Positions 32,846 to 54,721 of a stretch of DNA of 64,000 bases are shown piece by piece. The stretch is from positions 1-64,000 of the forward strand of contig NZ_JAQMHX010000020.1 of the NCBI RefSeq assembly GCF_028331445.1. The letters are read 5' to 3'. The notes under the pieces were generated by a model, which made no database searches, was not told the DNA's origin, and saw nothing but the letters and a program-made list of their open reading frames with translations. Each line of letters opens with the position of its first letter. Positions within the stretch are counted from its first letter, which is position 1. The translations under genes were made by a program, and so were the position numbers. The stretch comes from Candidatus Phyllobacterium onerii. GTDB lineage: Bacteria > Pseudomonadota > Alphaproteobacteria > Rhizobiales > Rhizobiaceae.

Positions 32846-33100
32846 CCTAAAAGGAACATCGCGACAAAAATGGTCTCGCCGACGACGAACGCAACGGCTT
32901 GGGCACCCGCATATGAAATTGATAAAGCGAAGTCTTCATACCGACCGCTAGCATTCCTCCCGGCAGTGCCCAGCGAGATCGTTCGGCACCGAAGGTCAAC
33001 AAGACCATGGGCATAACTCCGGCCGAATTCGCGCTCGCCAGAACGAGGAACGCCAAAAGGAATCCGGGTATTATGGTTTGGCGCTTCACGTTTCCACCGG
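32846..33100 (-). pseudogene. YeiH/UPF0324-type membrane protein, C-terminal remnant
   Basis: Minus-strand frames give IIPGFLLAFLVLASANSAGV followed by ISRWAL..., AVGMKTSLYQFHM and, in another frame, VGETIFVAMFLLG. The order matches the last three helices of YeiH-family putative sulfate exporters (PWFxxxFxxLxxxNS, then xxGMKTSL, then the final helix). Frameshifts are present. Just upstream (33150-33281) a piece reading GVFEMHDGQIIR recalls SnoaL-like proteins but is too short to call. Confidence 0.5.
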
Positions 33101-33281
33101 CCGCGAGACGGTGTTGAGGGTGACGCAAATTCCGATGCCGCGGGCGACCGTCTGGACCATCATCAAAATCAAGTTGCATGGCGTCAGCCTTTCGAATGAT
33201 TTGGCCGTCGTGCATTTCGAACACGCCATCGCCGCCGCCTTGCGCGTAAAAATCTACCTCCAGATTATCCCACGTCCCCAT

Positions 33282-33815
33282 GTGTTTCTGCGCAAGAGCA
33301 ACAAACGATAGGTGCTCGGCTCTACATCCTTATGCAGTGACCAGATGGTTTGGCACTTAGGGGATTCGAGTTTGCTATGGATGCGTTGGTTCACCGCATC
33401 CTGCATGAAGGGCCTTGTCGCGCTTCGCATCGCGACGGTTTTAGCAATTCATATTTTCTGGTTGGCCGGGTGCAAGCGACGACTTCTGTATTTGGGAGGC
33501 CCTGATCGAACAGGGTCATCACCGTTCGCGCGAGACTATCCGTATCTTCGGGGCGCGCGCAGCTACCTGAGTTCCCCCCACTCTCCTGATAACAGCTCAA
33601 AGTCATAATACAAAAAACTGAAATTTGTATCTTGACATGATCTCATTCGGCTAATAGCGGTAGCAACTTCGGGAGGACGATTGAACACCGCGTGCAGCCT
33701 TCGGCCTGGTCCAGTGCTGACGGTCATAATCTGTGCACAGCGGCTGAACTCGTGGATTCTGCCAGCTCCGATGGGTCAATAACCCGTCGATTTTCGAAAT
33801 GGGGAGGAACTCATC
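33282..33815. other. Intergenic region before the TRAP operon
   Basis: No supported gene. A TTGACA hexamer at 33632-33637 lies upstream of the TRAP binding-protein gene and may be part of its promoter or operator; no well-spaced -10 was found. The rest appears decayed. Confidence 0.35.
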
Positions 33816-34790
33816 ATGTATTTTTCCAAGCCGACAACGACAGCCATTGCCATTGGTGCGCTGATGATCGGAGCTGCAAGCGCTCAGACCGTACTTCGTT
33901 CGGCCGATACCCATCCTGATGGTTATCCGACGGTTGAAGCGGTCAAATATATGGGCGAACTTATCAAGGAGCGCACCGCCGGGCGTTACTCGGTCGAGGT
34001 CTATCATTCCGCGCAGCTGGGCGAGGAGAAGGATACGATAGAACAGACGCAGGCCGGCGTCCTTGATTTCAACCGCGTGTCAATGGGCCCCTTCAACGGC
34101 GTTGTCCCGGTGACGCAGATACCCTCGCTGCCCTATATATTCCGGTCCGCAGACCATATGCGCAAAACGATGGACGGACCGATTGGGGCTGAAATCCTCA
34201 AGGCGTTCGATACGCACAATCTCGTCGGCCTGGCTTTCTACGATTCCGGAGCCCGATCTTTCTACAACTCCAGGAAAGCCATCACCTCTCTCGCCGACCT
34301 GAAGGGGATGAAGTTCCGCGTCATCCAGTCCGATGTGTTTGTCGACATGGTCAACAACCTTGGAGCCAATGCTACGCCGATGGCCTATGGCGAGGTCTAT
34401 TCCGCTCTTGAGACCGGCGTCATTGACGGAGCCGAAAACAACTGGCCGAGCTTCGAATCCGCCAAACACTACGAAGTTGCCCAGTTCATCACTTTAGATG
34501 AACACCAGATGGTCCCGGAAGTCCTCGTCATGTCGAAATCGAGCTGGGACAAGCTTACTCCCGAGGACCAGGCCATCGTGCGTCAGGCGGCAAAGGACAG
34601 TGTTGCCAAAATGCGGGAGCTCTGGGACGCTCGCGAAAAGAAATCCCGCGCAACCGTTGAGGCCGCGGGAGTGAAGGTGAGCGAGATCGACAAGCAACCG
34701 CTGATCGACGCGATGAAGCCCGTCTACGAAAAATATCTGTCGACGCCGGAGTTGAAAGACCTCGCCGCCCGCATTCAGGCAACCAAGTAA
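33816..34790 (+). CDS. dctP: TRAP transporter substrate-binding protein (DctP)
   Basis: A 324-residue periplasmic protein with a signal peptide ([17 protein letters not shown], cut before QTV). It has the DctP fold: [40 protein letters not shown], then the conserved Arg block [20 protein letters not shown] that binds a carboxylate, and [28 protein letters not shown] precedes the ATG. Together with the next two genes it forms a TRAP importer for an organic acid. Position beside apiose/apionate genes suggests a sugar acid such as apionate or isoapionate; this is inference. A strong stem-loop follows the stop. Confidence 0.9.
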
Positions 34791-34800
34791 TCCTTGTGAC

Positions 34801-34829
34801 CACAACGGCAGTTCCGCACTGCCGTTGTG
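34801..34829. terminator. Stem-loop between dctP and dctQ
   Basis: CACAACGGCAG and CTGCCGTTGTG form a perfect 11-base stem with a 7-base loop. No T-run follows, so rather than a full stop it probably stabilises the upstream dctP message or attenuates reading into dctQM, giving more binding protein than membrane parts. Confidence 0.6.
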
Positions 34830-34854
34830 TCCTGACAGGAAAGAAAAGCTGTAG

Positions 34855-35445
34855 ATGACCGGCAACAACAATTCGCAACAAGGTTTGGCTTCCGCGGCAA
34901 GGAGAACGCGCCTGCTTCGCATCGGCGCGATGCTGACGAAAGTCAGCGATGGAGCCCTGTACCTTGCCGGCTTTGGCCTCGTCGTCATGACCGTCCTTGT
35001 CGCCTATCAGGTTTTCTCCCGCTTCATTCTGAACTCGTCACCGAGCTGGACAGAAACCAGCGCCATCATGATCATGAGCTGGTTCATTTTCCTCGGCGCG
35101 GCCATCGGCGTTCGCGAGAATTTCCATATGGGTTTCGACGTGCTTCTGTACGTCCTGCCACAGGGAAGCAAAGGGGCTCTGCGCGCATTTTCCGATGTGA
35201 TCGTTCTTACTTTCGGTATCGGCATGGTTTGGTACGGCTGCAAGCTTGTGATGCTCACATGGCAATCCACCATTCCATCGCTTGGTCTGCCCGCTGGCTT
35301 CGATTATCTCCCGCTGACCACGGGCGGCATTCTGATCAGCCTGTTTTCGCTGGAGCGCATCGTGATGCGATGGGCCGGGATCAGCGTGGACAAGGATATC
35401 AACCTTGAAGACGTTCCCGACATGCCTGTCGTGCAGGAGGCTTGA
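34855..35445 (+). CDS. dctQ: TRAP transporter small permease (DctQ)
   Basis: A 196-residue membrane protein with four helices. The DctQ hallmark is the second-helix block VVMTVLVAYQVFSRFILNSS followed by PSWTETSAIMIMSWFIFLGA and an IGVRENFHMGFDVL segment; the last helix region is PLTTGGILISLFSLERIV. It joins DctM in the TRAP complex. The start at 34855 follows a GGAAAG site. It ends three bases before dctM. Confidence 0.9.
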   Translation: MTGNNNSQQGLASAARRTRLLRIGAMLTKVSDGALYLAGFGLVVMTVLVAYQVFSRFILNSSPSWTETSAIMIMSWFIFLGAAIGVRENFHMGFDVLLYVLPQGSKGALRAFSDVIVLTFGIGMVWYGCKLVMLTWQSTIPSLGLPAGFDYLPLTTGGILISLFSLERIVMRWAGISVDKDINLEDVPDMPVVQEA

Positions 35446-35448
35446 GTC

Positions 35449-36729
35449 ATGGAGCTGTGGATTCTCTTTGGCTTCTTCACGTTCCTGATGTTTATCGGCA
35501 CGCCGATCGCCTTTTGCCTTGGCGCAGCCAGCTTCGCCACCGTGCTTTACCTCGGTCTGCCGCCACTGGTCGTCTTCCAGCGACTGAATTCCGGCATGAA
35601 TGTTTTTTCGCTGATGGCCGTGCCGTTTTTCATCTACGCCGGAGACCTCATGGTTCGCGGCGGCATCGCCCATCGCATCATCGCCTTTGCCGGTTCGCTT
35701 GTCGGGCATTTGCGGGGCGGGCTCGGACAAGTCAACATCGTGACGGCAACACTGTTTGGCGGCATTTCGGGCTCGGCCGTTGCCGAAGCCGCCGCGGTTG
35801 GCGGGCTGATGATTCCGCAAATGAAAGCAAGGGGATATGGTGCAGACTACGCGGTCAATGTTACCTCCATGGCAGCACTGATCGCACTGCTTTTGCCGCC
35901 TTCCCAAAACATGATCATTTATTCCATTGCCGGCGGTGGAAAGATCTCAATCGCCGATCTGTTCACCGCCGGCATTCTCCCGGGCCTCCTGCTGGCAGTC
36001 TCGCTCATGGTCACAGCCTATATCGTTGCCCGCAAGCGGGGCTACCCGACGGAGCCCTTTCAGGGCTTCGCCCAGGTCGGCCGTTTCGCCGTCATTGCCG
36101 TCCCGGGCCTGCTGTTGATCGCCATCATTTTCGGCGGCGTGCGTTCAGGGATTTTCACCGCAACAGAAAGCTCTTGTATCGCCGTTATCTATGCCTTGCT
36201 GGTGACGGTGCTGGGTTACAGATCGATGCGTTGGGACGATTTCGTCCATGCCACGCAAGGTGCGGTGCGCACCACAGCAATGGTGCTGCTGATAATTGGC
36301 ACTGCGGCTTCATTTAGCTGGCTTATGGCCTATCTCAAAGTTCCTTTGGCGCTGATCGCAGGAATGAATGCCATCTCCACAGACCCGCTGGTCGTTCTGC
36401 TCCTGCTGAATGTCCTGATGCTGCTTCTTGGTACGTTCATGGACATGGGCCCCATGATTATCATCTGCACACCGATCTTCCTTCCGATGGCCCAGCACTA
36501 TGGAGTCGACCCGGTCCATTTTGGCGTCATCCTCATTCTCAATCTTGGTATCGGATTGAACACTCCGCCCGTTGGCACCGTCCAGTTTGTCGCGTGTGCC
36601 GTGGGCAAGATCACTGTGTGGCAAGCCATGCGTTCCATATGGCCCTTCTACGGCGCCGGAATTGTGGTTCTGGGTCTTGTCACCTATATTCCGGCCATCT
36701 CGCTCTGGCTTCCGAGCGTGTTCAAATAG
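35449..36729 (+). CDS. dctM: TRAP transporter large permease (DctM)
   Basis: A 426-residue protein with about 12 hydrophobic helices. DctM signatures include FLMFIGTPIAFCLGAASF, NVFSLMAVPFFIYAGDLM, TATLFGGISGSAVAEAAAVG, LLPPSQNMIIYSIAGGG, LGTFMDMGPMIIICTPIFLP and GLNTPPVGTVQFVACAVGKI. It carries the sodium-driven transport path. GGAGG lies 10 bases before the ATG, inside the end of dctQ. A GntR regulator follows 14 bases after the stop. Confidence 0.93.
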   Translation: MELWILFGFFTFLMFIGTPIAFCLGAASFATVLYLGLPPLVVFQRLNSGMNVFSLMAVPFFIYAGDLMVRGGIAHRIIAFAGSLVGHLRGGLGQVNIVTATLFGGISGSAVAEAAAVGGLMIPQMKARGYGADYAVNVTSMAALIALLLPPSQNMIIYSIAGGGKISIADLFTAGILPGLLLAVSLMVTAYIVARKRGYPTEPFQGFAQVGRFAVIAVPGLLLIAIIFGGVRSGIFTATESSCIAVIYALLVTVLGYRSMRWDDFVHATQGAVRTTAMVLLIIGTAASFSWLMAYLKVPLALIAGMNAISTDPLVVLLLLNVLMLLLGTFMDMGPMIIICTPIFLPMAQHYGVDPVHFGVILILNLGIGLNTPPVGTVQFVACAVGKITVWQAMRSIWPFYGAGIVVLGLVTYIPAISLWLPSVFK

Positions 36730-36743
36730 AGGTGGCACCGGCA

Positions 36744-37496
36744 ATGGAAACTGTGACTGATCTAAAAGTGGAACGACGGCCGAAGCTGTCGGAAACAGTG
36801 GTCGCGGCCATCCGCGAGCAGCTGCAGACCGGGCTTATGCAGCCAGGTCAGAAGCTTCCGACCGAGGGCCAGCTCACAGAAACCTTTGGTGTCAGCCGCA
36901 CCGTCATCCGCGAAGCCATCGCCCAGTTGGCTGCCGCCGGCCTCGTCGAGCCGAGACAAGGGGCAGGTGTCTTTGTGATCGAGCAGATTTCGACGGCGTT
37001 CGGTGCATTGACGTCGGAGATGGGCACGAAGAACTCCATAGCGCTCAACGTTCTGGAAGTCAGGCTGGCCATTGAGATCGAGTCGGCGGGGCTGGCCGCC
37101 ACACGGCGCAATGCGGCGCAAGAGGCGGCAATCCAGGAGGCCTATGTCGAGTTCGACGTGCTCCTGCGAAATGGGGATCCCACCGGGCCGGCCGATCTGG
37201 CTTTTCACCGGGCTATCGCCAGTGCAACCAACAATCCGATCTATGTCGAAATGCTGGATGTCCTTGGCCGCCGCGCCATTCCCTGTGACGTGACTTCTCC
37301 GTGGTCCACGGAAACGTCGCAATCGGACGAATATCAGCGTGGTCTGCATCGTGAACATTTAGCCATTCTCAAGGCCATTTCCGCCGGCGATGCCGAAGCT
37401 GCCCGTCACGCAATGCGCGTTCACCTCAGTGCCAGCCAAAAGCGATATCTCGAACGCCTTCAGGCGCGGCATGGCTTTCATCAATCCGGCCCTTGA
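36744..37496 (+). CDS. GntR-family regulator, FadR/FCD subfamily (TRAP operon)
   Basis: A 250-residue regulator. The winged helix spans about residues 12-85 (LSETVVAAIREQLQTGLMQP, LTETFGVSRTVIREAIAQLA, PRQGAGVFV) and the FCD domain follows (ALNVLEVRLAIEIESAGLAA, ADLAFHRAIASATNNPIYVE, EHLAILKAISAGDAEAARHA, MRVHLSAS). The ATG at 36744 is preceded by AGAGGTGG; the frame extends back into dctM and is not used. It probably senses a sugar acid and controls the TRAP operon and/or the adjacent kinase/RuBisCO-like genes. Confidence 0.85.
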   Translation: METVTDLKVERRPKLSETVVAAIREQLQTGLMQPGQKLPTEGQLTETFGVSRTVIREAIAQLAAAGLVEPRQGAGVFVIEQISTAFGALTSEMGTKNSIALNVLEVRLAIEIESAGLAATRRNAAQEAAIQEAYVEFDVLLRNGDPTGPADLAFHRAIASATNNPIYVEMLDVLGRRAIPCDVTSPWSTETSQSDEYQRGLHREHLAILKAISAGDAEAARHAMRVHLSASQKRYLERLQARHGFHQSGP

Positions 37497-37885
37497 AAGC
37501 GCCAGGACCGCGAGTAACGATAATTTTCAGGATATAATGACCTACGTTCGCACCGAATTCACTTGCCGCTATGCCATCGACCCGGTTGCAGCTGCTGCTA
37601 TGGGAAACCGACGAACTGCGCAACAACGTTCACATCGGACATTGTTTTGAAAGGTGGACGCGTCAATCAATTTCTTTCGGTCGAGTTGGCAAAAATCGGT
37701 GGCGATGCAGCCATACCGCGCCCCACTTGCGCCCCCCCGTACCGCCGTCTATTGTGCGTGAGCCAAGATCGTCGAGATGCAAAGCATGCAACGAGCCGAG
37801 ATGCCTGGCAAATGTCATGCGTGCCGTTGCCTTGAACGCAGCATCAGCACGTTGCTCCGGCGTTGGTCGCCGGGGCTGGCGCACG
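37497..37885. other. Convergent intergenic stretch, no gene seen
   Basis: Lies between the plus-strand regulator and the minus-strand kinase. A minus-strand frame downstream of the kinase contains ATARMTFARHLGSLHALHLD, which looks like a piece of coding sequence, but I cannot assign it. Confidence 0.35.
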
Positions 37886-39214
37886 TCAATCCAGCCGTCC
37901 ATCCCGGATGCGAACGAAGAAGTCTTCGTTGCCGATCTGGCCGCCCTTAAGGACAAGTTCCAACGGTGCCGATCCATCAAATCGGTGAGCCAGGCATACC
38001 GGAGAGCCCGGGGATTGCGCAATCGGATGACGCAGAGTGAGTGCCCCGACATGGAGCTCGCTGAGGGCATGGCTTGATGTATCACCACCGGCAACGACAA
38101 CTCTCTTCAGGCCGTTCGCAGCCGTCAGACGATTCAGCAAGGCGCCAAGCCGCCGGCCAACACGATCATTGGCACGCCTGTCGGTGATCGGCTGTATTGA
38201 TGGTTTGCCCAGCGCCGTGAAAAGCAGCGGGCTCCTTCCTGATGTCAGGACCGCTGTGGCCGTATCGAAAGCTGCAGTTTCGGCTCGTTCCGACCCCGCA
38301 CCGGTCGCAAGCGCCGCGTAGTCGACCTCGATCGGTTCGAAGCCATGACTGCTGGCATATCTGATCTGCATTTCCGTTGTCGGGGAGCAACTTCCGGAGA
38401 CGACCGCGATTCTCTCCTGGGGTAACAGCGGCGATGACGAGGCCGCTGGTGCAAGATTGCCCCCGGCGCGCAGGGTTTCAATATACGCATATTCGACACC
38501 CGACGATCCGAATATGAGCGGGGCAGCGCTGCCAAGGTTCGCGTCAATGAGGGCACCTGCGCAGCGCAAGCTCAACAAATCGGCGACATCGATCATGATG
38601 ATTTTGTGGTCTTCGTCCAACGCCTTGCGCAAAGCCATCGATCCGTCGCCAGCGAGGAGTGCCGGAAGCTCGACGAGGCCTATCGAAGTGCGCGTCTGCT
38701 GCGCCAGATGCCTGCGCAGATCGGCTTCATGCATCGGTGTGCTGGGGTGCCGGCTCATCACCGGATGCCTGTCGATCCGGAAGACCTCGCCGCGAAACCG
38801 GGCAAAGAGTTCACCAAACATGGTGTAGCGTCCGAGTTGGGGGACCCCGACAATCAGCAGCGCGGCCTCTTGTTTGAAGGTTTCAAGGCCAATATCGATT
38901 GCCCGGCCGATTGAGCCTTGCGCGGGCGAACTGTCGAATGTCGAGCAGACCTTGTAGTGACAGATGGGAGCCCGCAACGATCGCAGCCATGCAAAGATCC
39001 TCGGCAATTCGCGGTCCATCCATTCAGGTGTTTGGCTGCGGCTGGTTCCCGCCAGGCCGACCGCCGCAGCGTTGTTGAAGGCTTTGAGGCGCGCATCATC
39101 CGGAATCTCGGTAAAAAGGACGGTCTCGATGCCGTTCGAGCTCAAGGCTTCCATCGCATCGGTAGACCCGGTGAAGTCATCGCCGTAAAATGCGATCTGC
39201 GTTTTTTCCGTCAT
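37886..39214 (-). CDS. oiaK: Four-carbon acid sugar kinase family, probable 3-oxo-isoapionate kinase
   Basis: A 442-residue DUF1537/SBD_N-type kinase. The N-terminal domain begins IAFYGDDFTGSTDAMEALSS with the family Asp-Asp, and has ICHYKVCSTFDSSPAQGSIG; the C-terminal nucleotide-binding domain has AVVSGSCSPTTEMQI, RRLGALLNRL, VVVAGGDTSSHALSEL and LVLKGGQIGNEDFF. Families of this fold phosphorylate four-carbon and related acids. Here its start overlaps the stop of the RuBisCO-like gene by 4 bases, the same pairing as OiaK with OiaX/OiaT in D-apionate catabolism. Expected reaction: 3-oxo-isoapionate + ATP to the 4-phosphate. The fold is certain; the substrate comes from context. Confidence 0.75.
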   Translation of the reverse strand: MTEKTQIAFYGDDFTGSTDAMEALSSNGIETVLFTEIPDDARLKAFNNAAAVGLAGTSRSQTPEWMDRELPRIFAWLRSLRAPICHYKVCSTFDSSPAQGSIGRAIDIGLETFKQEAALLIVGVPQLGRYTMFGELFARFRGEVFRIDRHPVMSRHPSTPMHEADLRRHLAQQTRTSIGLVELPALLAGDGSMALRKALDEDHKIIMIDVADLLSLRCAGALIDANLGSAAPLIFGSSGVEYAYIETLRAGGNLAPAASSSPLLPQERIAVVSGSCSPTTEMQIRYASSHGFEPIEVDYAALATGAGSERAETAAFDTATAVLTSGRSPLLFTALGKPSIQPITDRRANDRVGRRLGALLNRLTAANGLKRVVVAGGDTSSHALSELHVGALTLRHPIAQSPGSPVCLAHRFDGSAPLELVLKGGQIGNEDFFVRIRDGRLD

Positions 39215-40467
39215 GACAACCTCGACCGGAAGGTTTCAACTGCCGCACGAAGGTCGGGGTGCGTGACTGCGTAGGTTTCGAGACTGATGCCCTCCACTGC
39301 GGCCTGCCAGGCTTCGCGCAAACTCCTTATCCCGCCCGCCGGACCATGCGGATGCCCCATTATGCCGCCGCCAGCGCAATAAATGAGGTCAGTCGAGCCG
39401 AGCGCCTTGTAGGTGTCTTCCACCTGTTCTGCCGACTGCCCCGAAGAAAATACCGGCATCACCCTGAAATCCCTGTCACCGTCAAACAGGGGGGTGAGGC
39501 ACTGGCCTGCCGACGCGATCGACGACGTGCCATCCTCGCTGAACTTGTTGCGCAGCCCATTGACATGAAGATGATCAACCCCGGCAATCCGCCAGAATTT
39601 CTGCCACGCGATGAAACTGATCCCGATATCGGGCGAGCGTGAGAACAGGCCCCAGCCGTTCCGATGGCCATGTATCGGTAAATCCGTATGCTGTCGCAGC
39701 GCTGTGACAGCGGGAAGCCCGACGCTGTGGATCCCGACCATGACACACGTTCCACCCGCATCGCGTACGAGGTCGGCGTTACGCTTCATTTCATCCATCC
39801 CGCCGGTGATGTTGAAAGCATACATCGGCTTCTTGCCGGTTCTGTCAGCAAAGTCGCGGAGCACCTTCATTACGGCCTTGACACGTTCAGCAAACGGGCA
39901 GTGCGGGCCATTGGCCTGCAACTCATCATCCTTCAGGAAGTCAATTCCGCCTTCCGCCAGTCGCGAGACGAGGCTGGCAGTCTGTAGAGGATCAAGTCCG
40001 ACGCTCGGCTTGATGATCGTACCAATCAATGGACCGACAGGTACACCGGCCAACTTGCGCGTTCCGCCTATGCCTGCCCGCGGGCCGGGATAGGCGGCCG
40101 CAAACTCCGGTGGAAGCTCGACGTCAAGCAGACGAAGCGCAGAGACCTCGCGCAATTCGAAAAGGTTGCCTGCAACTGTTGCCAGCACATTGGGAAGCGA
40201 CGGTCCCATGTTCGCCAGTGACCAGGAAAGGCGAATTCGCCCGCGCGTAAATTTCCTGCCGGCTACCCTGCATGGCAGGGAAGGCTTGCTGGCCGCACCA
40301 GTCTCGACGATCGACTCAATGCGCGCCCCATAGGCCTCTTTCAGCTCGTCGGTCTCGCCTTCGAGCTGCATGAACGTGCCTGAGGATTGTTCCCCGGCGA
40401 TGATGGCCGCCGTATCGGCAAGGTTTCCGGGCGTCTCCAGATCGTAATCAGCGTAAATTCGGTTCAC
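39211..40467 (-). CDS. RuBisCO-like protein (type IV), probable 3-oxo-isoapionate-4-phosphate decarboxylase or transcarboxylase
   Basis: A 418-residue large-chain homologue from GTG 40467, placed five bases after GGGAGG; an ATG at 40497 would include that site. Active-site relatives are visible: GTIIKPSVGL (Lys153, equivalent of the first RuBisCO lysine), GGIDFLKDDE (Lys179 with acidic D-E, the carbamylation site), PIHGHRNGWG (histidines 266/268) and VFSSGQSAEQV with YCAGGGIMGHPHGPAGGI at the phosphate side. The sequence is not that of a CO2-fixing form (short, no small subunit). The neighbour kinase and ApnO point to OiaX (decarboxylase) or OiaT (transcarboxylase/hydrolase). No tetrose isomerase genes are nearby, which slightly favours OiaT, whose products go straight into central metabolism. 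Confidence 0.8.
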   Translation of the reverse strand: MNRIYADYDLETPGNLADTAAIIAGEQSSGTFMQLEGETDELKEAYGARIESIVETGAASKPSLPCRVAGRKFTRGRIRLSWSLANMGPSLPNVLATVAGNLFELREVSALRLLDVELPPEFAAAYPGPRAGIGGTRKLAGVPVGPLIGTIIKPSVGLDPLQTASLVSRLAEGGIDFLKDDELQANGPHCPFAERVKAVMKVLRDFADRTGKKPMYAFNITGGMDEMKRNADLVRDAGGTCVMVGIHSVGLPAVTALRQHTDLPIHGHRNGWGLFSRSPDIGISFIAWQKFWRIAGVDHLHVNGLRNKFSEDGTSSIASAGQCLTPLFDGDRDFRVMPVFSSGQSAEQVEDTYKALGSTDLIYCAGGGIMGHPHGPAGGIRSLREAWQAAVEGISLETYAVTHPDLRAAVETFRSRLS

Positions 40468-40518
40468 GTTCACCTCCCGTTGATTGCCAGCATACATACA
40501 GGCGCATTATTAACTGAT

Positions 40519-40537
40519 CAACTCATTATACCAGTTG
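40519..40537. promoter_or_regulatory. Candidate operator in the oiaX/apnO divergent promoter
   Basis: CAACT-N9-AGTTG with an internal TGGTATAATGAG (minus strand) lies midway between the divergent RuBisCO-like gene and apnO. A GGTATA-type half-site is known from NanR-like FadR regulators, and a NanR-like gene ends this locus. TTGACA at 40535-40540 overlaps. Confidence 0.4.
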
Positions 40538-40594
40538 ACAACATGATATCTTGCCGACACATTGCGGCGAGGAATTCAAGGGAGGGCATTCTTC

Positions 40595-41419
40595 ATGAAA
40601 ATCGCGCTGCTCGGTGCTGGCGGAAAAATGGGGACGCGGCTCGCGAAGAACCTTACGGGGTCGCGATTCCAAGTGGCTCATGTAGAGGTCAATGAGGCGG
40701 CAAAAGCCCGCCTGAAGGATGTGCTGGGTGTCGACTGCGTCACTCCGGAGGAAGGCCTCGAAGGGGCGCACATCGTTGTTATGGCGGTTCCCGATACAGC
40801 GATCCGGGCAGTGTCTCATCAGATCGTCGACAGGCTCCAGCCCGGCACGATGGTTGTCATCCTCGATGCGGCCGCACCATTTGCCGGCCACCTGCCGGAA
40901 CGCAAGGACATCACCTATTTCGTCACGCACCCTTGTCATCCGCCGATCTTCAATGACGAGACAGAAATGTCCGCAAAACGGGATTTCTTCGGCGGCGTCG
41001 CTGCGGCGCAGTCAATCGTCAGCGCGCTGATGCAAGGGCCCGAGGAACACTTCGCCCAGGGCGAAGAGGTGGCGAAACTCATTTACAAGCCCATCCTGCG
41101 CTCGCACAGGGTTACTGTCGAGCAGATGGCGCTGCTCGAACCCGGCCTTTCGGAGACTGTCTGTGCGTCACTGCTGGCGGCCATGAAGGATGCCCTGGAC
41201 GAGGTCGTTCGCCGGGGCGTTGACCCGGTCGCGGCCCGCGACTTCCTGCTCGGGCACATGAACATTCTGGGTGCCGTCATCATGGGGGAGGTCGACGGCG
41301 TATTCTCGGATGCCTGCAACAAGGCAATCGAAAACGGCAAGCCGCGGATAATGCAGCCGGACTGGCTGAACGTCTTCAATCACGACGAGATCACGGAGAG
41401 CATCCGGCGGATCACCTGA
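40595..41419 (+). CDS. apnO: D-apionate oxidoisomerase (ApnO)-type dehydrogenase
   Basis: A 274-residue NAD(P)-dependent enzyme with an N-terminal Rossmann fold (MKIALLGAGGKMGTRLAKNL, GxGGxMG) and a C-terminal domain resembling phosphogluconate/ketol-acid reductoisomerase-type helices (KPILRSHRVTVEQMALLEPG, LLGHMNILGAVIMGEV). VTHPCHPPIFNDE is a distinctive block. In D-apionate catabolism ApnO oxidises and rearranges D-apionate to 3-oxo-isoapionate. GGGAGGG precedes the ATG at 40595; the frame runs further upstream without support. It heads the large plus-strand operon, 84 bases before the sugar-binding protein gene. Confidence 0.72.
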   Translation: MKIALLGAGGKMGTRLAKNLTGSRFQVAHVEVNEAAKARLKDVLGVDCVTPEEGLEGAHIVVMAVPDTAIRAVSHQIVDRLQPGTMVVILDAAAPFAGHLPERKDITYFVTHPCHPPIFNDETEMSAKRDFFGGVAAAQSIVSALMQGPEEHFAQGEEVAKLIYKPILRSHRVTVEQMALLEPGLSETVCASLLAAMKDALDEVVRRGVDPVAARDFLLGHMNILGAVIMGEVDGVFSDACNKAIENGKPRIMQPDWLNVFNHDEITESIRRIT

Positions 41420-41479
41420 TCCGACGGTGATCCATCCCTGTTGGAGGACAGCGATACACCATTGAAAAGCGATCGATAA

Positions 41480-42445
<966 letters not shown>

Positions 42446-42456
42446 GCACAAGAGGC

Positions 42457-42486
42457 GCATGGCGGATCACGCAAGATCCGCCATGC
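42457..42486. terminator. Stem-loop between sugar-binding protein and DUF2291 genes
   Basis: GCATGGCGGATC and GATCCGCCATGC form a perfect 12-base stem with a 6-base loop (42469-42474), 12 bases after the stop. No T-run follows. As in the TRAP operon, it probably stabilises the binding-protein message and limits reading into the downstream genes. Confidence 0.65.
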
Positions 42487-42527
42487 CTTCTTCGATGCCC
42501 TGATCCTTATGCTCGCGAGTGAAATGG

Positions 42528-43205
42528 ATGACAATCAAAGTAAACGTCCTTGTTGCCGTCTCGGTCGCCGTCGTGGTGCTCGGCGTTTCGGGCTGCAAGA
42601 TCAAGAAGAATGAAGCCGCCAGCGCCAAGGCCTCCGGCCAGCTCGAAATATTCTTTGATTCCTCGGACTTCAATGCCGAGAAGGTGGTTGCCGATATATG
42701 GACGCCGAAGGTCGAGCCTTTCATGCGCGACAAGGCTAATCGATTTGCCGAGGTCCAATCGGCGTTGGCAAAGGACGCCAGGAGTGCCGGGCCGCAGTAT
42801 GGATATAGCGAGAATCCTGCCCAGAACCCCTATAGTTTCATAGTCAGGCTTGACGGCCAGGTGGTCGACTCGAACACCAAGTCCAGGGCCGCCTATATCG
42901 CGGTGGATACGAATGGCGACGGCAAGAGCGATGCCAAGGTGCAGCTTGGCCCGGTCATCCGTGGCACGGCGCTGCGTGACGTCCTGCCTTTCATCCCTTT
43001 CAGCGCCTTCAAGAACCAGATTGAATATGCCAATGTTGGCCGTGCGCTGAATGCGCATGTCTACGAGGCCAAACTCTCCAAACTCGACCGGGACAACCTT
43101 GTTGGAAAACATGTGAGTGTAACGGGGGCTTTCGTGGCCCCGAGTGCGGGAGCTGAAATCCTGATTGCGCCGTCCGACGTCACCATCGCAGGCGGCCAGC
43201 CATGA
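42528..43205 (+). CDS. DUF2291 lipoprotein of a sugar ABC operon
   Basis: A 225-residue protein starting at ATG 42528 (MTIKVNVLVAVSVAVVVLGV) with a lipobox VSGC, so it should be anchored at the membrane. The body contains DFNAEKVVADIWTPKVEPFM, SFIVRLDGQVVDSNTKSRAA, VDTNGDGKSDAKVQLGPVIR and VTGAFVAPSAG. DUF2291 genes are frequently placed between the binding protein and ATPase genes of ribose-type transporters; their role is unknown. Its stop overlaps the ATPase start by 4 bases, so translation is coupled. A GTG at 42519 is an alternative start. Confidence 0.82.
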   Translation: MTIKVNVLVAVSVAVVVLGVSGCKIKKNEAASAKASGQLEIFFDSSDFNAEKVVADIWTPKVEPFMRDKANRFAEVQSALAKDARSAGPQYGYSENPAQNPYSFIVRLDGQVVDSNTKSRAAYIAVDTNGDGKSDAKVQLGPVIRGTALRDVLPFIPFSAFKNQIEYANVGRALNAHVYEAKLSKLDRDNLVGKHVSVTGAFVAPSAGAEILIAPSDVTIAGGQP

Positions 43206-44749
43206 ACGCCGATCAGGAAGTCATCCTCAGCGTGCGCGGTGCTACCAAGGTCTATCCGGGGACGATCGCCTTGAAATCCGTGGACTTCGATGTCCGCAAA
43301 GGCGCCGTTAATGTGCTTGTCGGGGAGAATGGCGCCGGCAAATCGACCCTTATGAAGATTATCAGCGGCGTCGAACAGCCAACCGAGGGCACCATACTGC
43401 TGCATGGCGAGCCCATTCGCATGACCAGTACGCAGGATGCTATCCGCAATGGCATCGGTATTGTGTTTCAGGAACTCAACCTGTTCCCAAACATGACCGT
43501 CGCCGAGAACATCTTCATTACGCGCGAACAATGCCGTTTCGGCATCGATATTGACCGCACGACGCAGGAAGAGAAGTCCCGGGCACTCATGCGGCGTCTT
43601 GAACATGATATTGCGGTCGACCGGCCGGTCGGAGAATTGCGCATTGGCCAGCAGCAGATTGTCGAGATTGCCAAGGCCCTGTCACAGGACGCAAGGATTC
43701 TGATCATGGACGAACCGACCTCGGCATTGAGCGCCACCGAGGTCGAAATTCTGTTCCGCGTGATTGCCGAGCTGAAGGCGCAGGGGGTGGCAATCGTCTA
43801 TATTTCCCATCGTCTCGAGGAACTCGTGCGCATCGGCGATTTCATCACTGTCCTCAGAGACGGCAGCATAACCGGCTCGAGTTCGATGAAGGACATCGAT
43901 GTGCCTTGGATCGTGCGAAGCATGATCGGCGCGTCGTCAAAGGACTATGCCAAGACCGCAGAGCACAAATACGGCAACGAGATTTTGCAAATCGAGGATA
44001 TTACGCTGCCGAGGCAAGGCGGCGGTTATATGGTTGACCATGTCTCACTGTCGTTGCGGGCAGGGGAAATCATCGGCATCTACGGCCTGATGGGGGCGGG
44101 CCGAACCGAGTTGTTCGACTGTATCATGGGGCGGCACAAGCATGCCGGGGGGACGATCCTCGTTGGCGGAAGGCCATTGCCCAAGGCGGATGTCCTTGAG
44201 CGTATCAATGGTGGGCTTGCCCTGATCCCGGAGGACCGGAAGGCCGAGGGGCTGATCCAGATCATGTCGATCAGCGACAACATGACCCTGGCGAGCCTCT
44301 GGAACTATGTGCGCGGCGTGCAGATCGACGGCAAGAAGGAGCGCGCGACAGTCGCGCAATACGTTCGCAAACTCGCGATCAAGATCGCCAATCCGGATAA
44401 TGAGGTCGCATCGCTTTCAGGCGGAAACCAGCAGAAGGTGGTCATCGGCAAGGCGCTCATGACGGATCCGAAAGTCCTGCTTATGGACGAACCGAGCCGT
44501 GGCATCGATATCGGTGCCAAGGCGGAAGTGTTCCGCACCATGCGCAGGCTTGCGGCGGACGGCCTTGGCATTCTCTTTGTGACGTCCGACCTCGAAGAGG
44601 TCATGGCGCTGTCAGACCGCATCATCGTCATGTCCAAAGGCCGCATCACCGGCGATTTTCAACGCGTTGGGGCAACGGAACAAGCCGTGGTCGCCGCATC
44701 GAGCGTCGGCCACGACATTACCGGCCAAACCATGGAGGCTCGATCATGA
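43202..44749 (+). CDS. Ribose-type sugar ABC transporter ATPase (two ABC domains)
   Basis: A 515-residue protein with two fused ABC domains, as in RbsA/XylG. Domain 1 has Walker A GENGAGKSTLMKIISG, an atypical signature near VGELRIGQQQIVEIAKALSQ and Walker B LIMDEPTSALS. Domain 2 has GLMGAGRTELFDCIMG (degenerate Walker A), LSGGNQQKVVIGKALM and LLMDEPSRGIDIGAKAEVF. This asymmetry is normal for the family, with one main catalytic site. It powers the permease encoded by the next gene, whose start overlaps its stop by 4 bases. Confidence 0.93.
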   Translation: MNADQEVILSVRGATKVYPGTIALKSVDFDVRKGAVNVLVGENGAGKSTLMKIISGVEQPTEGTILLHGEPIRMTSTQDAIRNGIGIVFQELNLFPNMTVAENIFITREQCRFGIDIDRTTQEEKSRALMRRLEHDIAVDRPVGELRIGQQQIVEIAKALSQDARILIMDEPTSALSATEVEILFRVIAELKAQGVAIVYISHRLEELVRIGDFITVLRDGSITGSSSMKDIDVPWIVRSMIGASSKDYAKTAEHKYGNEILQIEDITLPRQGGGYMVDHVSLSLRAGEIIGIYGLMGAGRTELFDCIMGRHKHAGGTILVGGRPLPKADVLERINGGLALIPEDRKAEGLIQIMSISDNMTLASLWNYVRGVQIDGKKERATVAQYVRKLAIKIANPDNEVASLSGGNQQKVVIGKALMTDPKVLLMDEPSRGIDIGAKAEVFRTMRRLAADGLGILFVTSDLEEVMALSDRIIVMSKGRITGDFQRVGATEQAVVAASSVGHDITGQTMEARS

Positions 44750-45813
44750 GCGCTACGATTACCAAGCAGGCGCCCGGATTGACCTCCAGTTCGGCAGTGA
44801 TGGCGCTCCTGCACATGCGGACCTTCATCGCCCTGTTCCTGGTCCTGATCTTCTTCTCCTTTGCCGCGCCGAACTTCCTCAGCACGGCGAACATGATGAT
44901 CATGTCGAAACATGTGGCGCTCAACGCGTTCCTTGCCGTAGGCATGACCTTCGTCATCATCACCGGAGGCATCGATCTTTCGGTCGGATCGATCGTCGGC
45001 CTGTCGGGTATGGTTGCAGGCGGACTGATCATGAACGGGCTCAATCTCGGACCAATAGGCTACACGATCTATTTCAATGTGGTCGAGGTCGTTCTCGTTA
45101 CCCTGGCCGTCGGCATCCTGATCGGGGCCCTCAACGGATTTCTGATAACGCGATTGAATGTAGCGCCATTCATTGCGACGCTCGGCACCCTCTACGTGGC
45201 CCGGGGCTTTGCCCTCCTTTCGTCGGACGGACGGACGTTCCCGAACCTCGTCGGTAACGCTGAACTCGGCACGACCGGGTTTCCGTTTCTCGGGTCGGGC
45301 GTGATTTTGGGCATCCCCGTATCGATCTGGCTGCTGGTCATCATCGGCTGTGGTGCTGCCTATATCGCCGGACGCACGCCACTTGGCCGTTTTATCTATG
45401 CCGTCGGCGGCAATGAACGGGCGGCGGCGCTGTCCGGCGTGCGTGTCAATCGCGTGAAGATGTTCGTCTATATGTTCTCTGGCTTCTGTGCCGCGATCGT
45501 TGGCCTGATCATTTCATCCGAATTGGTGGCGTCCCATCCCGCCACGGGCGAAAGTTTTGAACTCAATGCGATCGCTGCTGCCGTCCTTGGCGGCACATCG
45601 ATGTCGGGCGGCCGCGGCAAGATCGGCGGCACCATCGTCGGCGCGTTTGTGATCGGTATCCTTTCCGATGGCCTGGTGATGATGGGCGTCAGCTCGTTCT
45701 GGCAGATTGTCATCAAGGGTGTCGTGATTATCGCGGCCGTTGTCGTTGACCAGTTTCAGAGAAGGCTTCAACAAAGACTTGCGCTGCAACAGCAGGCAGC
45801 GATCGGAGGCTGA
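44746..45813 (+). CDS. Ribose-type sugar ABC transporter permease
   Basis: A 355-residue membrane protein of the RbsC/BPD_transp_2 family, with 8-10 helices. Typical blocks: LNAFLAVGMTFVIITGGIDL SVGS (split here), GLSGMVAGGLI, GALNGFLITRLNVAPFIATL GT, LGRFIYAVGGNERAAALSGV with RVNRVKMFVYMFSGFCAAIV, and LNAIAAAVLGGTSMSGGRGK IGG. The pattern is full length. It is followed two bases later by apsD. Confidence 0.92.
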   Translation: MSATITKQAPGLTSSSAVMALLHMRTFIALFLVLIFFSFAAPNFLSTANMMIMSKHVALNAFLAVGMTFVIITGGIDLSVGSIVGLSGMVAGGLIMNGLNLGPIGYTIYFNVVEVVLVTLAVGILIGALNGFLITRLNVAPFIATLGTLYVARGFALLSSDGRTFPNLVGNAELGTTGFPFLGSGVILGIPVSIWLLVIIGCGAAYIAGRTPLGRFIYAVGGNERAAALSGVRVNRVKMFVYMFSGFCAAIVGLIISSELVASHPATGESFELNAIAAAVLGGTSMSGGRGKIGGTIVGAFVIGILSDGLVMMGVSSFWQIVIKGVVIIAAVVVDQFQRRLQQRLALQQQAAIGG

Positions 45814-45815
45814 CA

Positions 45816-46844
45816 ATGGTGAGAGGCGGACTGATCGGTTGTGGCTTCTTTGCCCATAACCACCTCCATGCCTGGCAAGAAATAGGTGATAGCGCGATTA
45901 CGGCCCTGTGCGATCGTGACGAGGAGAGATTGCGGGATGCCGGCCAGAAGTTCGGGATCAGCAATCTTTATACCGATGCGGCAGAAATGATGGCCCGCGA
46001 GTCCCTCGACTTCGTCGACATCGCAACAACTGTCGCGACGCACCGCCCGCTGGTCGAGTCGGCCGCTGGCGCAGGTCTGCCTGTCATTTGCCAAAAGCCC
46101 TTCGCCGAAAGTCTCAGCGACGCCCGCGCGATGGTCGATGCCTGTGCCCGGGCAGGTGTGCCATTGATGGTGCATGAGAATTTCCGTTGGCAGGCGCCGA
46201 TACGCGCCGTCCGCGCTGTCCTGGACAGCGGCCGGATCGGAACCGTCTTTTGGGCAAGAGTGTCGTTTCGATCGGCCTATGACGTCTTCTCGGGCCAACC
46301 CTATCTTGCGACATCGCAGCGGTTCATCCTCGAGGACCTCGGCATCCACATCCTCGACATTGCCCGCTTCCTTTTTGGCGATGTAAGCCGCTTGTCTGCG
46401 GTCATCAATCGGGTCAATCCCAAGATCAGGGGCGAGGACGTTGCGACCGTGCTCATGCTCCACGAAAGCGGCGTGAACAGTATCTGTGATTGCAGTTACG
46501 CGACAGCATTGGCAGAAGAGCTTTTCCCGCAGACACTGCTGGAAATCGATGGCAGTCGGGGCTCGATCCGGCTCAATGCCAACTACGAATTGATCGTGCA
46601 CAGCAATGGCGTGACCGAGAGGCAGACGGTCGCCCCGGTCCTTCACCACTGGGCATGCCGGCCCTGGCACAATATCCAGGAAAGTGTCTACGCCATACAG
46701 AAACACTGGGTGGATTGCCTTGCCGGCGGGACCGTCCCGGAAACCTCAGGAGACGATAATCTTAAAACCATGACGCTCGTGGCCGCCGCCTATCAATCGG
46801 CGGCGGGGAACCTTGCGCCAGTCGATGTCGCGACATTGACATGA
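45816..46844 (+). CDS. apsD: Gfo/Idh/MocA oxidoreductase, probable D-apiose dehydrogenase
   Basis: A 342-residue NAD(P)-dependent dehydrogenase. The Rossmann start is GGLIGCGFFAHNHLHAWQEI, followed by ALCDRDEERLRDAGQKFGIS, DFVDIATTVATHRPLVESAA and the family motif as VICQKPFAES, where Lys is the usual catalytic residue. The C-terminal beta-sheet domain has HENFRWQAPIRAVRAVLDSG and ILEDLGIHILDIARFLFGD, including the conserved Asp/His pair. In the apiose pathway ApsD oxidises D-apiose to D-apionolactone. Its placement between the sugar permease and ApnL matches that order. Its stop overlaps the next start by 4 bases. Confidence 0.75.
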   Translation: MVRGGLIGCGFFAHNHLHAWQEIGDSAITALCDRDEERLRDAGQKFGISNLYTDAAEMMARESLDFVDIATTVATHRPLVESAAGAGLPVICQKPFAESLSDARAMVDACARAGVPLMVHENFRWQAPIRAVRAVLDSGRIGTVFWARVSFRSAYDVFSGQPYLATSQRFILEDLGIHILDIARFLFGDVSRLSAVINRVNPKIRGEDVATVLMLHESGVNSICDCSYATALAEELFPQTLLEIDGSRGSIRLNANYELIVHSNGVTERQTVAPVLHHWACRPWHNIQESVYAIQKHWVDCLAGGTVPETSGDDNLKTMTLVAAAYQSAAGNLAPVDVATLT

Positions 46845-48760
46845 CGGCTCCGTCACCTCGTTCGCTCAGGCTCTTTGGAACGGACATTCCCCCGGCCGAC
46901 GCGCAACTGTTGAGGGCGGGGGATCTGGAGGCGGAGTTGGTACAGGGGAACCTGCGCGCGATCCGCTTCAAGGGGCACGAAATACTCCGCGCCATCGCCT
47001 ATGTCGTGCGGGATCGCGACTGGGGCACGTTCGATCCGGCTATCAGCGATCTCGTTGTCGATATGCAGCCGAAACGTTTTGAAGTGCGCTATTTCGCCAG
47101 CTGCGGCGGTCGATTGCGCTATACGGCGATAATCGGCGGCGACGCCGACGGAACGCTGAAATTCTCCGTCACGGCAACGCCGGACCGGGACTTCGAGACC
47201 AATCGGTGCGGGTTCTGCGTACTGCATCCAATCGTCGGGGTCGCCGGGAAGCCCGTCACTGTCGAACACTGCGACGGGGCGACAGAAGAGGCAATATTCC
47301 CGGATCTGATCGCGCCCTGGCAGCCCTTCAAATCGATCCGTTCCCTGAGCCATAATCCGGCTGAGGGGATAGAAGCGACCTGCCGCCTGCTTGGCGCTGC
47401 GTTCGAGATGGAGGATCAGCGCAACTGGTCGGATGCCTCCTATAAGACTTATGTGCGCCCGCTCGCCTTGCCATGGCCCTACATCATGCCCGCCGGCACC
47501 GCGAACATGCAGGAGGTTGAGCTGTCGCTGCGGGTAGCACCATCGGCGGCGACGCGCAGGAGGAACGGAAACACCGTCCGCGTGACGGTTTCCGGGAAGC
47601 CTTCGGGCCATAGGCTGGCGGAAACGGGACTGCTCGTCATGCCCGACACGTTGCAGCAGGCACTCGACGGTGCGTCGGCAGTCAAAGAGATTGGTCCCGG
47701 CTTTCTCCTTTGTCATCTCGACCCATCAGCCGGCCACGGCGAAGCTGAATTGACCGGCTATGCCCAACTCCGCAATCGTACAAACTGCCCGATCCTGCTG
47801 GAGTATGTCGCCCTTGCTGGCACCGACCTCGATGGCGAGTTTCGGGCGCTGGCAGCGCAGATCGAGCGATCCGCGCTTCGGCTTGCCGGGCTGACCGTTT
47901 GCCCGTTGGTGGACAGGCAGTCTACGCCGCCAGGAAGCCGCTGGCCTGAATGCCCGCCATTGTCCGCTCTTTACGACGCGGCGCACGAGAACTTTGCGGG
48001 TCTTGCCATTGGCGGTGGAATGGTAAGCTACTTTACCGAACTCAATCGCAAGCGGCCGCCTGTTGAAAAACTGGATTTCGTCACGCATGGCACCAATCCA
48101 ATCGTTCATGCAGCCGACGACGAAAGTGTGATGCAGACGCTTGAGGCGCTGCCCTTCATCTTTCGTTCTGCAAGGAAGATCATGGGCGACGTCCAGACGT
48201 ATCGCCTGGGGCCATCCTTCATTCCGATGCGCCAGAACCCCTATGGTTCGCGCGCCTTCGAGAACGATTTGGGCGAACGCAAGGCGATGGCGAAAGCCGA
48301 CCCGCGACAGGGCGGTGTATTTGCTGCTTCATTCATGGCCGGGTACGCCGCGCGCGTTGCCGAACATAACATTGCTTCCTTCGTTCCCGCTGGCCTGTTC
48401 GGCGCCGCCGGCCTTGTCGGCGACGCCGAGACCCCTTATCCGGCGTGCACTGTCGCCAAGTGGCTATGCTGCCTCGCCGGGCAATCTGTGCTCGAGAGCA
48501 GCTCGGAGGAAGAGGCCTCAATACTGCTCGCAGCCTTTAAGGACGATGCAGGACATGTAAGCGTTTTGATCTCCAATATCACGGGGGAAGTACATACGGC
48601 CACCCTTGATCTGTCCGCCCGCCCGTCCAGGCTGTCGGTCGCCATATTGGACGAGGATAGTTTCCCAGGAGCGGCGAGGAGGAGATTGCCCTTTGGCGAA
48701 GATCAGATCGAGCTTTTATTGAAGCCCTATGCGGTAGCACTCCTGCGTTATAACGTTTGA
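46841..48760 (+). CDS. apnL: D-apionolactonase (ApnL)-type protein
   Basis: A 639-residue cytoplasmic protein without a signal peptide. I recognise no classical lactonase motif; the assignment uses length, context and a glycosidase-like architecture: an N-terminal beta-rich part (LRAIRFKGHEILRAIAYVVR DRDWG), a central barrel-like part (PNATVS-free; SEEITRNRTNCPIL region, then LYDAAHENFAGLAIGGGMVS YFTELNRKR) and a C-terminal beta domain (LLAAFKDDAGHVSVLISNIT GEVHTATLDL). Characterised ApnL proteins have this size and directly follow apsD. Expected reaction: hydrolysis of D-apionolactone to D-apionate. It is the last catabolic gene of the operon. Confidence 0.68.
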   Translation: MTAPSPRSLRLFGTDIPPADAQLLRAGDLEAELVQGNLRAIRFKGHEILRAIAYVVRDRDWGTFDPAISDLVVDMQPKRFEVRYFASCGGRLRYTAIIGGDADGTLKFSVTATPDRDFETNRCGFCVLHPIVGVAGKPVTVEHCDGATEEAIFPDLIAPWQPFKSIRSLSHNPAEGIEATCRLLGAAFEMEDQRNWSDASYKTYVRPLALPWPYIMPAGTANMQEVELSLRVAPSAATRRRNGNTVRVTVSGKPSGHRLAETGLLVMPDTLQQALDGASAVKEIGPGFLLCHLDPSAGHGEAELTGYAQLRNRTNCPILLEYVALAGTDLDGEFRALAAQIERSALRLAGLTVCPLVDRQSTPPGSRWPECPPLSALYDAAHENFAGLAIGGGMVSYFTELNRKRPPVEKLDFVTHGTNPIVHAADDESVMQTLEALPFIFRSARKIMGDVQTYRLGPSFIPMRQNPYGSRAFENDLGERKAMAKADPRQGGVFAASFMAGYAARVAEHNIASFVPAGLFGAAGLVGDAETPYPACTVAKWLCCLAGQSVLESSSEEEASILLAAFKDDAGHVSVLISNITGEVHTATLDLSARPSRLSVAILDEDSFPGAARRRLPFGEDQIELLLKPYAVALLRYNV

Positions 48761-48822
48761 CAGTGCTGACTTCGTCCGCACCACACTGATTTGCAATGAA
48801 GGTTCGGGAGTCCTTTTGGCCT

Positions 48823-49533
48823 ATGAAAAATCTCGATGATCGAATCGTCCGAAGAAAGCTGTCCGATGAGGTTTTCGATCGGTTGCACGACCTTATCGCC
48901 AGCGGCGAAATCGGTCCCGGAGATGAGATGCCCTCCGAGCGGGATCTCATGGAGCGATTTGGCGTGGGCAGGCCCGCGATCCGCGAGGCGATGCAATCGC
49001 TGCACACTATGGGGTTGATATCCATTTCCCACGGCGAGCGGGCAAGGGTTAGCGCTTTGACGCCGCGGAAGATGTTCAAGCAGATCGATGTGGTGGCACG
49101 CATGTTGATGCTGACTTCCCCGGAATCGCTTGAACATCTCAAAGGCACCCGGCTGTTCTATGAGCGCGGTTTGGTCCGCATAGCGGCCGAGCGGGCGACG
49201 CCCGGTGACATCGACGCGCTCGAGTCAATCTTGGCCAGCCAGAAACGCCACTACGGCAATTCTGAGCGCTTCATCGCGGATGATATTGCTTTCCACCGTA
49301 AAATCGCTTCGATTTCCGGTAATCCCATCCTCGAGGCATTGAGCGAGTCGCTGCTAAAATGGCTGTTCGAGTATCACATCGAGATGTTGATCTGGACCGG
49401 TCAGGAAAACGTGACACTTCAGGAGCATGCGGCAATCCTGAATTGCATCAAAGGTGGTGATGCCGACGCGGCGGAACGGGCTATGGTTGTTCATATCGAG
49501 CGCTCGCGGGCTCTCTATGCGGTCAAACGTTGA
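48823..49533 (+). CDS. GntR-family regulator, NanR-like
   Basis: A 236-residue FadR/FCD-type regulator. The N-terminus MKNLDDRIVRRKLSDEVFDR then LIASGEIGPGDEMPSERDLM and ERFGVGRPAIREAMQSLHTM is characteristic of proteins annotated NanR. The FCD domain follows (RLFYERGLVRIAAERATPGD, DIAFHRKIASISGNPILEAL, EHAAILNCIKGGDADAAERA). An upstream in-frame ATG at 48796 is possible, but the family usually starts near 48823. It ends the apiose operon, 62 bases after apnL, and is the best candidate for binding the operator near 40519. Confidence 0.82.
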   Translation: MKNLDDRIVRRKLSDEVFDRLHDLIASGEIGPGDEMPSERDLMERFGVGRPAIREAMQSLHTMGLISISHGERARVSALTPRKMFKQIDVVARMLMLTSPESLEHLKGTRLFYERGLVRIAAERATPGDIDALESILASQKRHYGNSERFIADDIAFHRKIASISGNPILEALSESLLKWLFEYHIEMLIWTGQENVTLQEHAAILNCIKGGDADAAERAMVVHIERSRALYAVKR

Positions 49534-51178: not shown

Positions 51179-53168
<1,990 letters not shown>

Positions 53169-54156: not shown

Positions 54157-54721
54157 AACGAACCCTTTCATAGCAATTGCAACGACCCGCCGACATAGAA
54201 CTTGGCGGATGATGATCTCGATCTTTGAAGGGGAAGTTCGTCCAGGGCACGTTGCCAGCGCGCGATAACAAAAGTCAAACTAGCAAACATCGACGCTAGA
54301 CGTGTACCCCTCCACACACCAAGATGTCAATGCGGCGCCCCCTCCGGTCGCGGTGTCGCTGTCAGCATCATAAGGTTGGGGGATGGTCGCCCTTTCCCGC
54401 GCGCACGACGGTCGCGAAGAAGCGCATCGTTCAAGGCGAACCGATGCTTCGCTTTTGCATCTTTGTCGTCCCAGGATTTTCAGGAGCGCGTTTGCAGGGT
54501 CGGTGCACTGAATTTGCAGGCGAGCAGGGCAGGACAGGACAGGACAGGACAGGTGAAAATATTCGTTCTTCGCAAGCGTTTGCGCCCATTCCGCGCTTGC
54601 GGCCGTGGTCGTCCGCTACCGTGCTTTGGTCCACTATTTATTTTCTTCGGATCGATTTGAGAGCGCACGCGTTGGAAAGCAGCCCACGATGAGACGGACA
54701 GCGCTACGAAAGGGACTTCGT
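54157..54721. other. Intergenic with a pentamer repeat
   Basis: No supported gene. It includes the cold shock promoter/leader region, the AGGAC repeat at 54531-54553 and the upstream region of the response regulator. Confidence 0.4.
54531..54553. repeat. Pentanucleotide repeat (AGGAC)4
   Basis: Four perfect AGGAC units plus a partial one. Such tracts can change length by slippage. It lies about 170 bases upstream of the response regulator start, outside any supported coding region. Confidence 0.95.

Follow-up and report, generated by a model that had tools for sequence, protein, structure and literature searches.

Does a single catabolic pathway draw on two importers of different classes, or do two separate units lie side by side? 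The question is raised by positions 33816-49533 of a 64,000-nucleotide stretch (the window) on contig C20 of Candidatus Phyllobacterium onerii (genome 6.0 Mb, 99.93% complete), where a tripartite ATP-independent periplasmic (TRAP) transporter adjoins an ATP-binding cassette (ABC) transporter and a set of enzymes putatively acting on apiose. Apiose is a branched plant cell-wall sugar.

An earlier note on this DNA read the whole region as one D-apiose/D-apionate locus with two importers, and its RuBisCO-like protein (RLP) as OiaX or OiaT. The gene families, order and strands that it gave were reproduced by our gene calls, which combine a listing of open reading frames (ORFs) with Pfam and NCBIfam profile scans of the window proteins. 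Its assignment to apiose also held; the idea of two importers for one pathway did not, nor did OiaX. Taken as a whole, we regard it as likely that the window carries an oxidative D-apiose locus at 37886-49533 and, next to it, the remnant of a separate hexuronate TRAP unit. The locus itself is of a known kind; the useful additions are the corrected importer, a rule for OiaX and an operator.

Identity and conservation of the apiose block

The assignment to apiose is carried by several proteins of the block. ApnL scored above the NCBI equivalog cut-off (NF049900, 759.6 against 750 bits). The substrate-binding protein (SBP) of the ABC transporter is identical to PDB entry 5ibq at 228 of 289 aligned residues (79%), while the Gfo/Idh/MocA dehydrogenase and the ApnO-like protein match 5uhw (448 bits) and 5t57 (416 bits), respectively, over nearly their full lengths. 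We take these entries to be the apiose-binding protein, ApsD and ApnO from the work of Carter et al., who in 2018 reportedly described oxidative D-apiose pathways made up of ApsD, ApnL, ApnO, OiaK and either OiaX or OiaT. No NCBIfam model matched the dehydrogenase or the ApnO-like protein above its cut-off. The kinase weighs against the assignment, reaching 430.8 bits with the OiaK model NF042436, whose cut-off is 700; because of this score we call it OiaK-type only. At L010, a further ApnO locus, the kinase likewise falls short (472.5 against 700).

We examined 88 loci, of which 80 are the best 80 among 566 confirmed relatives from a genome scan and eight are plasmid matches chosen among 366 records. 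The block order NanR-ApnL-ApsD-permease-ATPase-DUF2291-SBP-ApnO / RLP-kinase recurs identically in P. zundukense, R. aggregatum, Mesorhizobium RMAD-H1 and M. xinjiangense (L003, L004, L011 and L014), and the examined stretches of these four loci gave no match to DctP, DctQ or DctM. Among plasmid records, the top matches of the window RLP lie on two Phyllobacterium plasmids (84-85%), in a search that may omit records very near the window's genome. Set beside the oxidative D-apiose pathways as cited in the accessible part of PMC6302742, the window is alike in all enzyme families, in its apiose-type ABC SBP and in block organisation, with no difference in kind, its RLP and kinase falling below the OiaX and OiaK cut-offs. 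These likenesses point to a complete oxidative D-apiose locus at 37886-49533, one more, unexceptional example of a type already described.

In the proposed route, the ABC transporter would import D-apiose, which the ApsD-type dehydrogenase would convert to apionolactone. ApnL would open the lactone to D-apionate, the ApnO-like enzyme would isomerise this to 3-oxo-isoapionate, and the OiaK-type kinase would phosphorylate the product. Although RLP/kinase pairs occur in other contexts too, with RLP loci that have other enzymes and no ApnO (L006, L008, L009) and no ApnO match in the examined stretch of 34 of 102 RLP-bearing sequences, the window has the ApsD-type dehydrogenase, ApnL above its cut-off, ApnO and the apiose-type SBP all together; that this block works on another sugar acid is very improbable.

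As to the setting of the RLP loci without ApnO, that of Rhizobium etli (L006) has a short-chain reductase and a KDG permease, L008 lies on a plasmid of the archaeal genus Natronococcus, and the Croceibacterium locus (L009) lies among glycosidases.

The TRAP unit and the two operators

The TRAP importer most likely serves hexuronates, not the apiose pathway, as judged from the relatives of its genes. The five best PDB matches of its binding protein, DctP, include 4MHF (356.8 bits), a glucuronate and galacturonate binder according to the accessible part of PMC7660916. We opened five plasmid records with DctP relatives, three of them annotated and two analysed by tblastn. In all three annotated records DctP (68-70% identity) follows uxaC and stands ahead of kduI, and in S. 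meliloti a FadR-type regulator lies between DctP and kduI; kduI was found in both of the other two loci and uxaC in one. Genomes G155 and G073 have the order uxaC-DctPQM-FadR-KduI-KduD, and G063, of the same genus as the window, has DctPQM-FadR-KduI and no OiaX-family match in our profile scan of 199 family genomes. Over the hexuronate loci searched, kduI was present in 8/8 and uxaC in 6/8.

Compared with the S. meliloti operon uxaC-DctPQM-FadR-KduI-KduD (L143), the window has a DctP that is 69% identical, a DctM that is 82% identical and a GntR regulator with 67% identity (238 residues) to the FadR-type one, and it has the element ATACAA-N11-TTGTAT in common. Unlike that operon, the window gave no match to uxaC or kduD, and its kduI is only a stub. 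The stub, a feature absent from the earlier note, lies between the GntR gene and the kinase gene: when window positions 37410-37638 were compared with the FadR-kduI junction of G063, 169 of 232 positions aligned, with a frameshift, and homology then ended. Contig C7 of the same genome carries uxaC, uxuA and a uxuB-like gene, and the 18 kb examined there gave no match to TRAP genes. We also considered whether the genome has no kduI apart from the stub and rejected this: three KduI/IolB-family (PF04962) matches, candidates for kduI, occur on contigs C9, C8 and C5.

The same grouping emerged from a DctP tree of 65 rows, comprising the window's protein, eight from hexuronate loci, 29 close homologues chosen by similarity and 27 from RLP loci (at least 80 bits to the window's). 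Three of the 29 are the same genes as hexuronate rows, and RLP loci with a weaker DctP or a DctM-only match are omitted. The window DctP groups with the hexuronate and close-homologue rows, and 27/27 RLP-locus DctPs, several of them long-branched, lie across a 100/100 branch. Two points tell against the hexuronate assignment: the wider gene context was examined for only three of the 29 close homologues, and a hexuronate-type DctP could bind D-apionate as a side substrate.

The two units also carry different candidate operators. In nine loci, the intergenic regions between the divergent RLP and ApnO genes have 24 invariant columns in common. With a matrix built from eight of them, the window excluded, the window site scored 52.9, the runner-up in the 64 kb scored 19.4, and the highest score in five windows shuffled by single bases was 9.5. 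The core, AACTGGTATRA[TA][GAC]A, that is AACTGGTAT[AG]A[TA][GAC]A, was defined from eight of the counted loci and the window; in a set of 110 sequences it gave 38 occurrences, spread over 33 of them, whereas the reversed pattern gave none and 40 permuted patterns averaged 0.05 (maximum 1). By class, it was found in 32/68 ApnO-bearing RLP loci, 1/34 loci without ApnO and 0/8 hexuronate loci; it is not universal, being missing in 36 of the 68. The window has one strong site (40514-40549) and the genome one exact core, while cores with one mismatch in the rest of the genome number 4, near chance given 1 for a control pattern. No apiose-type operator was found upstream of the window DctP, and GGTATACC, which we take to be an E. 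coli NanR-like palindrome, had no exact occurrence in the window. The ATACAA-N11-TTGTAT element upstream of DctP recurs with the same spacing in 4/8 hexuronate loci and in 0/101 other loci searched. Of three promoter sequences aligned, those of the window and G063 are the only two that match well by eye.

We infer that the NanR-like protein probably reads 40514-40549 and controls the divergent RLP/ApnO promoter, and that the FadR-type regulator may read 33608-33630. We lean somewhat towards the broader view that the loci's NanR-like proteins make up an apiose/apionate regulator family reading a so far undescribed operator, in which the core is part of a longer element of the divergent RLP/ApnO promoter and which would mark the pathway importers of each genome; a search of open-licence literature found no description of it. 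Such an operator could be used to delimit apiose regulons.

The earlier note's proposal, in which the ABC transporter imports apiose and the TRAP transporter D-apionate for one pathway, draws on the adjacency of the two units. In other genomes TRAP genes do accompany ApnO and an RLP: a DctP match occurs in 21 of 67 ApnO-bearing RLP loci (window included), 18 of the 21 lacking an ApsD or apiose-type SBP match. The window DctP nevertheless belongs to the hexuronate clade, across the branch from the 27 RLP-locus proteins of the tree, and its kin stand in operons with uxaC and/or kduI, of which the window keeps the kduI stub. L022, L024 and L030 have an apiose-type operator some 170-210 bases away from DctP, but none lies ahead of the window's. 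The apiose block is moreover found without TRAP genes, and G063 has the TRAP genes but no OiaX-family match. On clade, synteny, stub and operators we rejected the TRAP transporter as the apionate importer, a role that is quite improbable here. TRAPs of other DctP branches adjoin ApnO/RLP loci elsewhere, and the two-importer idea may therefore hold there.

Apiose and uronic acids both derive from rhamnogalacturonan II and apiogalacturonan, and the two units might work as a pair in the use of plant pectin debris, their neighbourhood being under selection. In G146 (L164, 379-18045) the apiose block's kinase is followed by uxaC-KduI-KduD-UxuB-like-UxuA, but L164 is one of 16 hand-picked stretches, and hexuronate units lie beside full apiose blocks in only two of ten cases (the window and L164), in differing arrangements. 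Hexuronate-type DctP co-occurs mildly with ApnL (23/47 ApnL genomes against 43/152 others, p 0.013) but not significantly, genome-wide, with any OiaX/OiaT-like RLP (24/57 against 42/142, p 0.098), and the window's kduI is decayed. Such pairing is unlikely, and we do not claim selection for pectin debris because two of ten full blocks are too few. We favor the reading in which the TRAP genes and the FadR-type regulator (33608-37496) are a separate unit, the remainder of a glucuronate/galacturonate operon whose kduI was cut at the junction. The case suggests that neighbourhood alone can misassign an importer, an apparent apionate TRAP pointing to hexuronates by clade, gene remnant and operator.

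The RuBisCO-like protein: OiaX or OiaT

The earlier note had left the RLP as OiaX or OiaT. The OiaX model NF042437 matches in 102 of the 199 family genomes, with scores that split into 730-797 bits in 33 genomes and at most 454 in all others; the window RLP scores 417 against a cut-off of 700. In a tree of 119 RLPs, built with a quick method without bootstrap and with some long branches, the 22 rows of OiaX make up a side of their own (100% support in the Shimodaira-Hasegawa-like approximate likelihood ratio test, branch length 1.1). The window RLP belongs to a clade of ten rows (99%), nine of which have ApnO.

The active-site residues follow the same division. Aligned with the genome's own RuBisCO, the window RLP retains E60, N123, K175, K201, D203, E204, H294, H327 and K334 and has S at the equivalent of K177, in what we take to be RuBisCO numbering. 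The equivalents of E60, N123 and H327 are D, G and Q in 22/22 OiaX-clade rows and E, N and H in 66/66 other ApnO-bearing rows, the window included.

The decarboxylase route for apiose uses TpiA2/RpiB-type isomerases to reach erythrose 4-phosphate. Isomerases of the TpiA2 and RpiB types are also part of the Brucella erythritol route, according to the accessible part of PMC5992420. An RpiB-family gene occurs in 33/33 OiaX genomes and 40/166 others (Fisher p 1e-17, which overstates independence as the genomes are related), and ApnL co-occurs with OiaX in 33/33. No such link with RpiB was seen for genomes with non-OiaX RLPs only (8/24 against 65/175 others). In the window's own, nearly complete genome the RpiB family gave no match, and a single triose-phosphate isomerase was found. 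As a genome-level rule, we suggest that OiaX loci can be told from others by RpiB and by the residues D/G/Q as opposed to E/N/H.

The accessible part of PMC6302742 describes decarboxylation and transcarboxylation/hydrolysis by A. radiobacter K84 and X. autotrophicus RLPs. The window RLP is most likely OiaT, which as a transcarboxylase/hydrolase would yield glycolate and 3-phosphoglycerate, and the glycolate would enter metabolism via glycolate oxidase. Four RLPs of Ancylobacter (Xanthobacteraceae), our stand-in for the characterised Xanthobacter OiaT, lie on the same 97-row side of the tree as the window RLP but in another subclade. Glycolate oxidase-like genes are present, GlcF scoring above its cut-off. 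Two observations weigh against OiaT: no curated OiaT model matched the window RLP in the NCBIfam scan, and GlcD is just below its cut-off (540.4 against 567.9) and GlcE a partial match below its own (205.5 against 284).

OiaX, a decarboxylase supplying erythrulose phosphate for conversion to erythrose 4-phosphate, is nonetheless the best NCBIfam match of the window RLP, though under the cut-off, and strain LCG007 grows on D-apiose with a decarboxylase gene reported beside other enzymes (accessible part of PMC11747546). Given the position of 417 bits within the split distribution, the separate clade, the differing residues and the missing RpiB with only one triose-phosphate isomerase, we rejected OiaX, which we consider improbable, and retain OiaT as the best fit. 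The OiaX-type loci L161 and L162 resemble the window in having an apiose-type ABC transporter, an ApsD-type dehydrogenase, a NanR-like regulator and a kinase, with ApnL within L161 and, for L162, just beyond the examined stretch. They differ from it in their RLPs, which are 44% identical and have different active-site residues, and in the RpiB carried by OiaX genomes.

The RuBisCO used for the alignment is encoded at 4592-6052 of locus L152 (contig C8), apart from the apiose block, by a true large-subunit gene (486 amino acids); it scores 795.5 bits with the RuBisCO model, whose cut-off is 438. A similar weak match to the OiaX model in the same-genus genome G149 (134.6 bits) may be RuBisCO too. 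In genome G003 an OiaX-family copy on C10 (2627-3354) is broken, with TGA codons inside it, and contig C8 has an intact one.

Gene content of the window

The features of both units are collected in Table 1. The true start of the RLP gene may be a GTG at about 40467, and the ORF listed for the ApnO-like protein starts with TTG at 40562.

Table 1. Features of the hexuronate-type TRAP unit and the apiose block, in window coordinates.
Feature	Position	Strand	Basis
Inverted repeat ATACAA-N11-TTGTAT, putative operator for the hexuronate TRAP unit	33608-33630	none	upstream of DctP
DctP, TRAP binding protein, hexuronate type, outside the apiose block	33816-34790	+	profile scan, PDB match, DctP tree
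DctQ, TRAP small permease	34855-35445	+	profile scan
DctM, TRAP large permease	35449-36729	+	profile scan
GntR/FCD regulator, FadR type	about 36759-37496	+	profile scan, S. meliloti comparison
kduI remnant, about first 46 codons, frameshifted	about 37537-37678	+	comparison with G063
DUF1537 kinase, OiaK type	37886-39214	-	NF042436, 430.8 bits (cut-off 700)
RLP, outside the OiaX clade; proposed OiaT	39211-40497	-	scans, tree, residues
Conserved operator, divergent RLP/ApnO promoter region	40514-40549, core 40523-40536	-	motif matrix
ApnO-like D-apionate oxidoisomerase (PGDH_C)	about 40595-41419	+	profile scan; PDB 5t57, 416 bits
D-apiose-type (ribose-type) ABC SBP	41504-42445	+	profile scan; PDB 5ibq
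DUF2291 lipoprotein	42519-43205	+	profile scan
ABC ATPase	43202-44749	+	profile scan
ABC permease	44746-45813	+	profile scan
Gfo/Idh/MocA dehydrogenase, ApsD type	45816-46844	+	profile scan; PDB 5uhw, 448 bits
ApnL, D-apionate lactonase	46841-48760	+	NF049900, 759.6 bits (cut-off 750)
NanR-like GntR/FCD regulator	48796-49533	+	NF003011, 322.6 bits (cut-off 260)

Beside the TRAP unit, at 32847-33281, lies an ORF of 144 amino acids whose match to the family Cons_hypoth698 (304 positions) is confined to positions 237-301; it is probably a truncated gene. On the other side of the apiose block, a response-regulator gene is followed by a KaiC-family ATPase gene (54605-56693), with a GroEL gene nearby (51492-53168).

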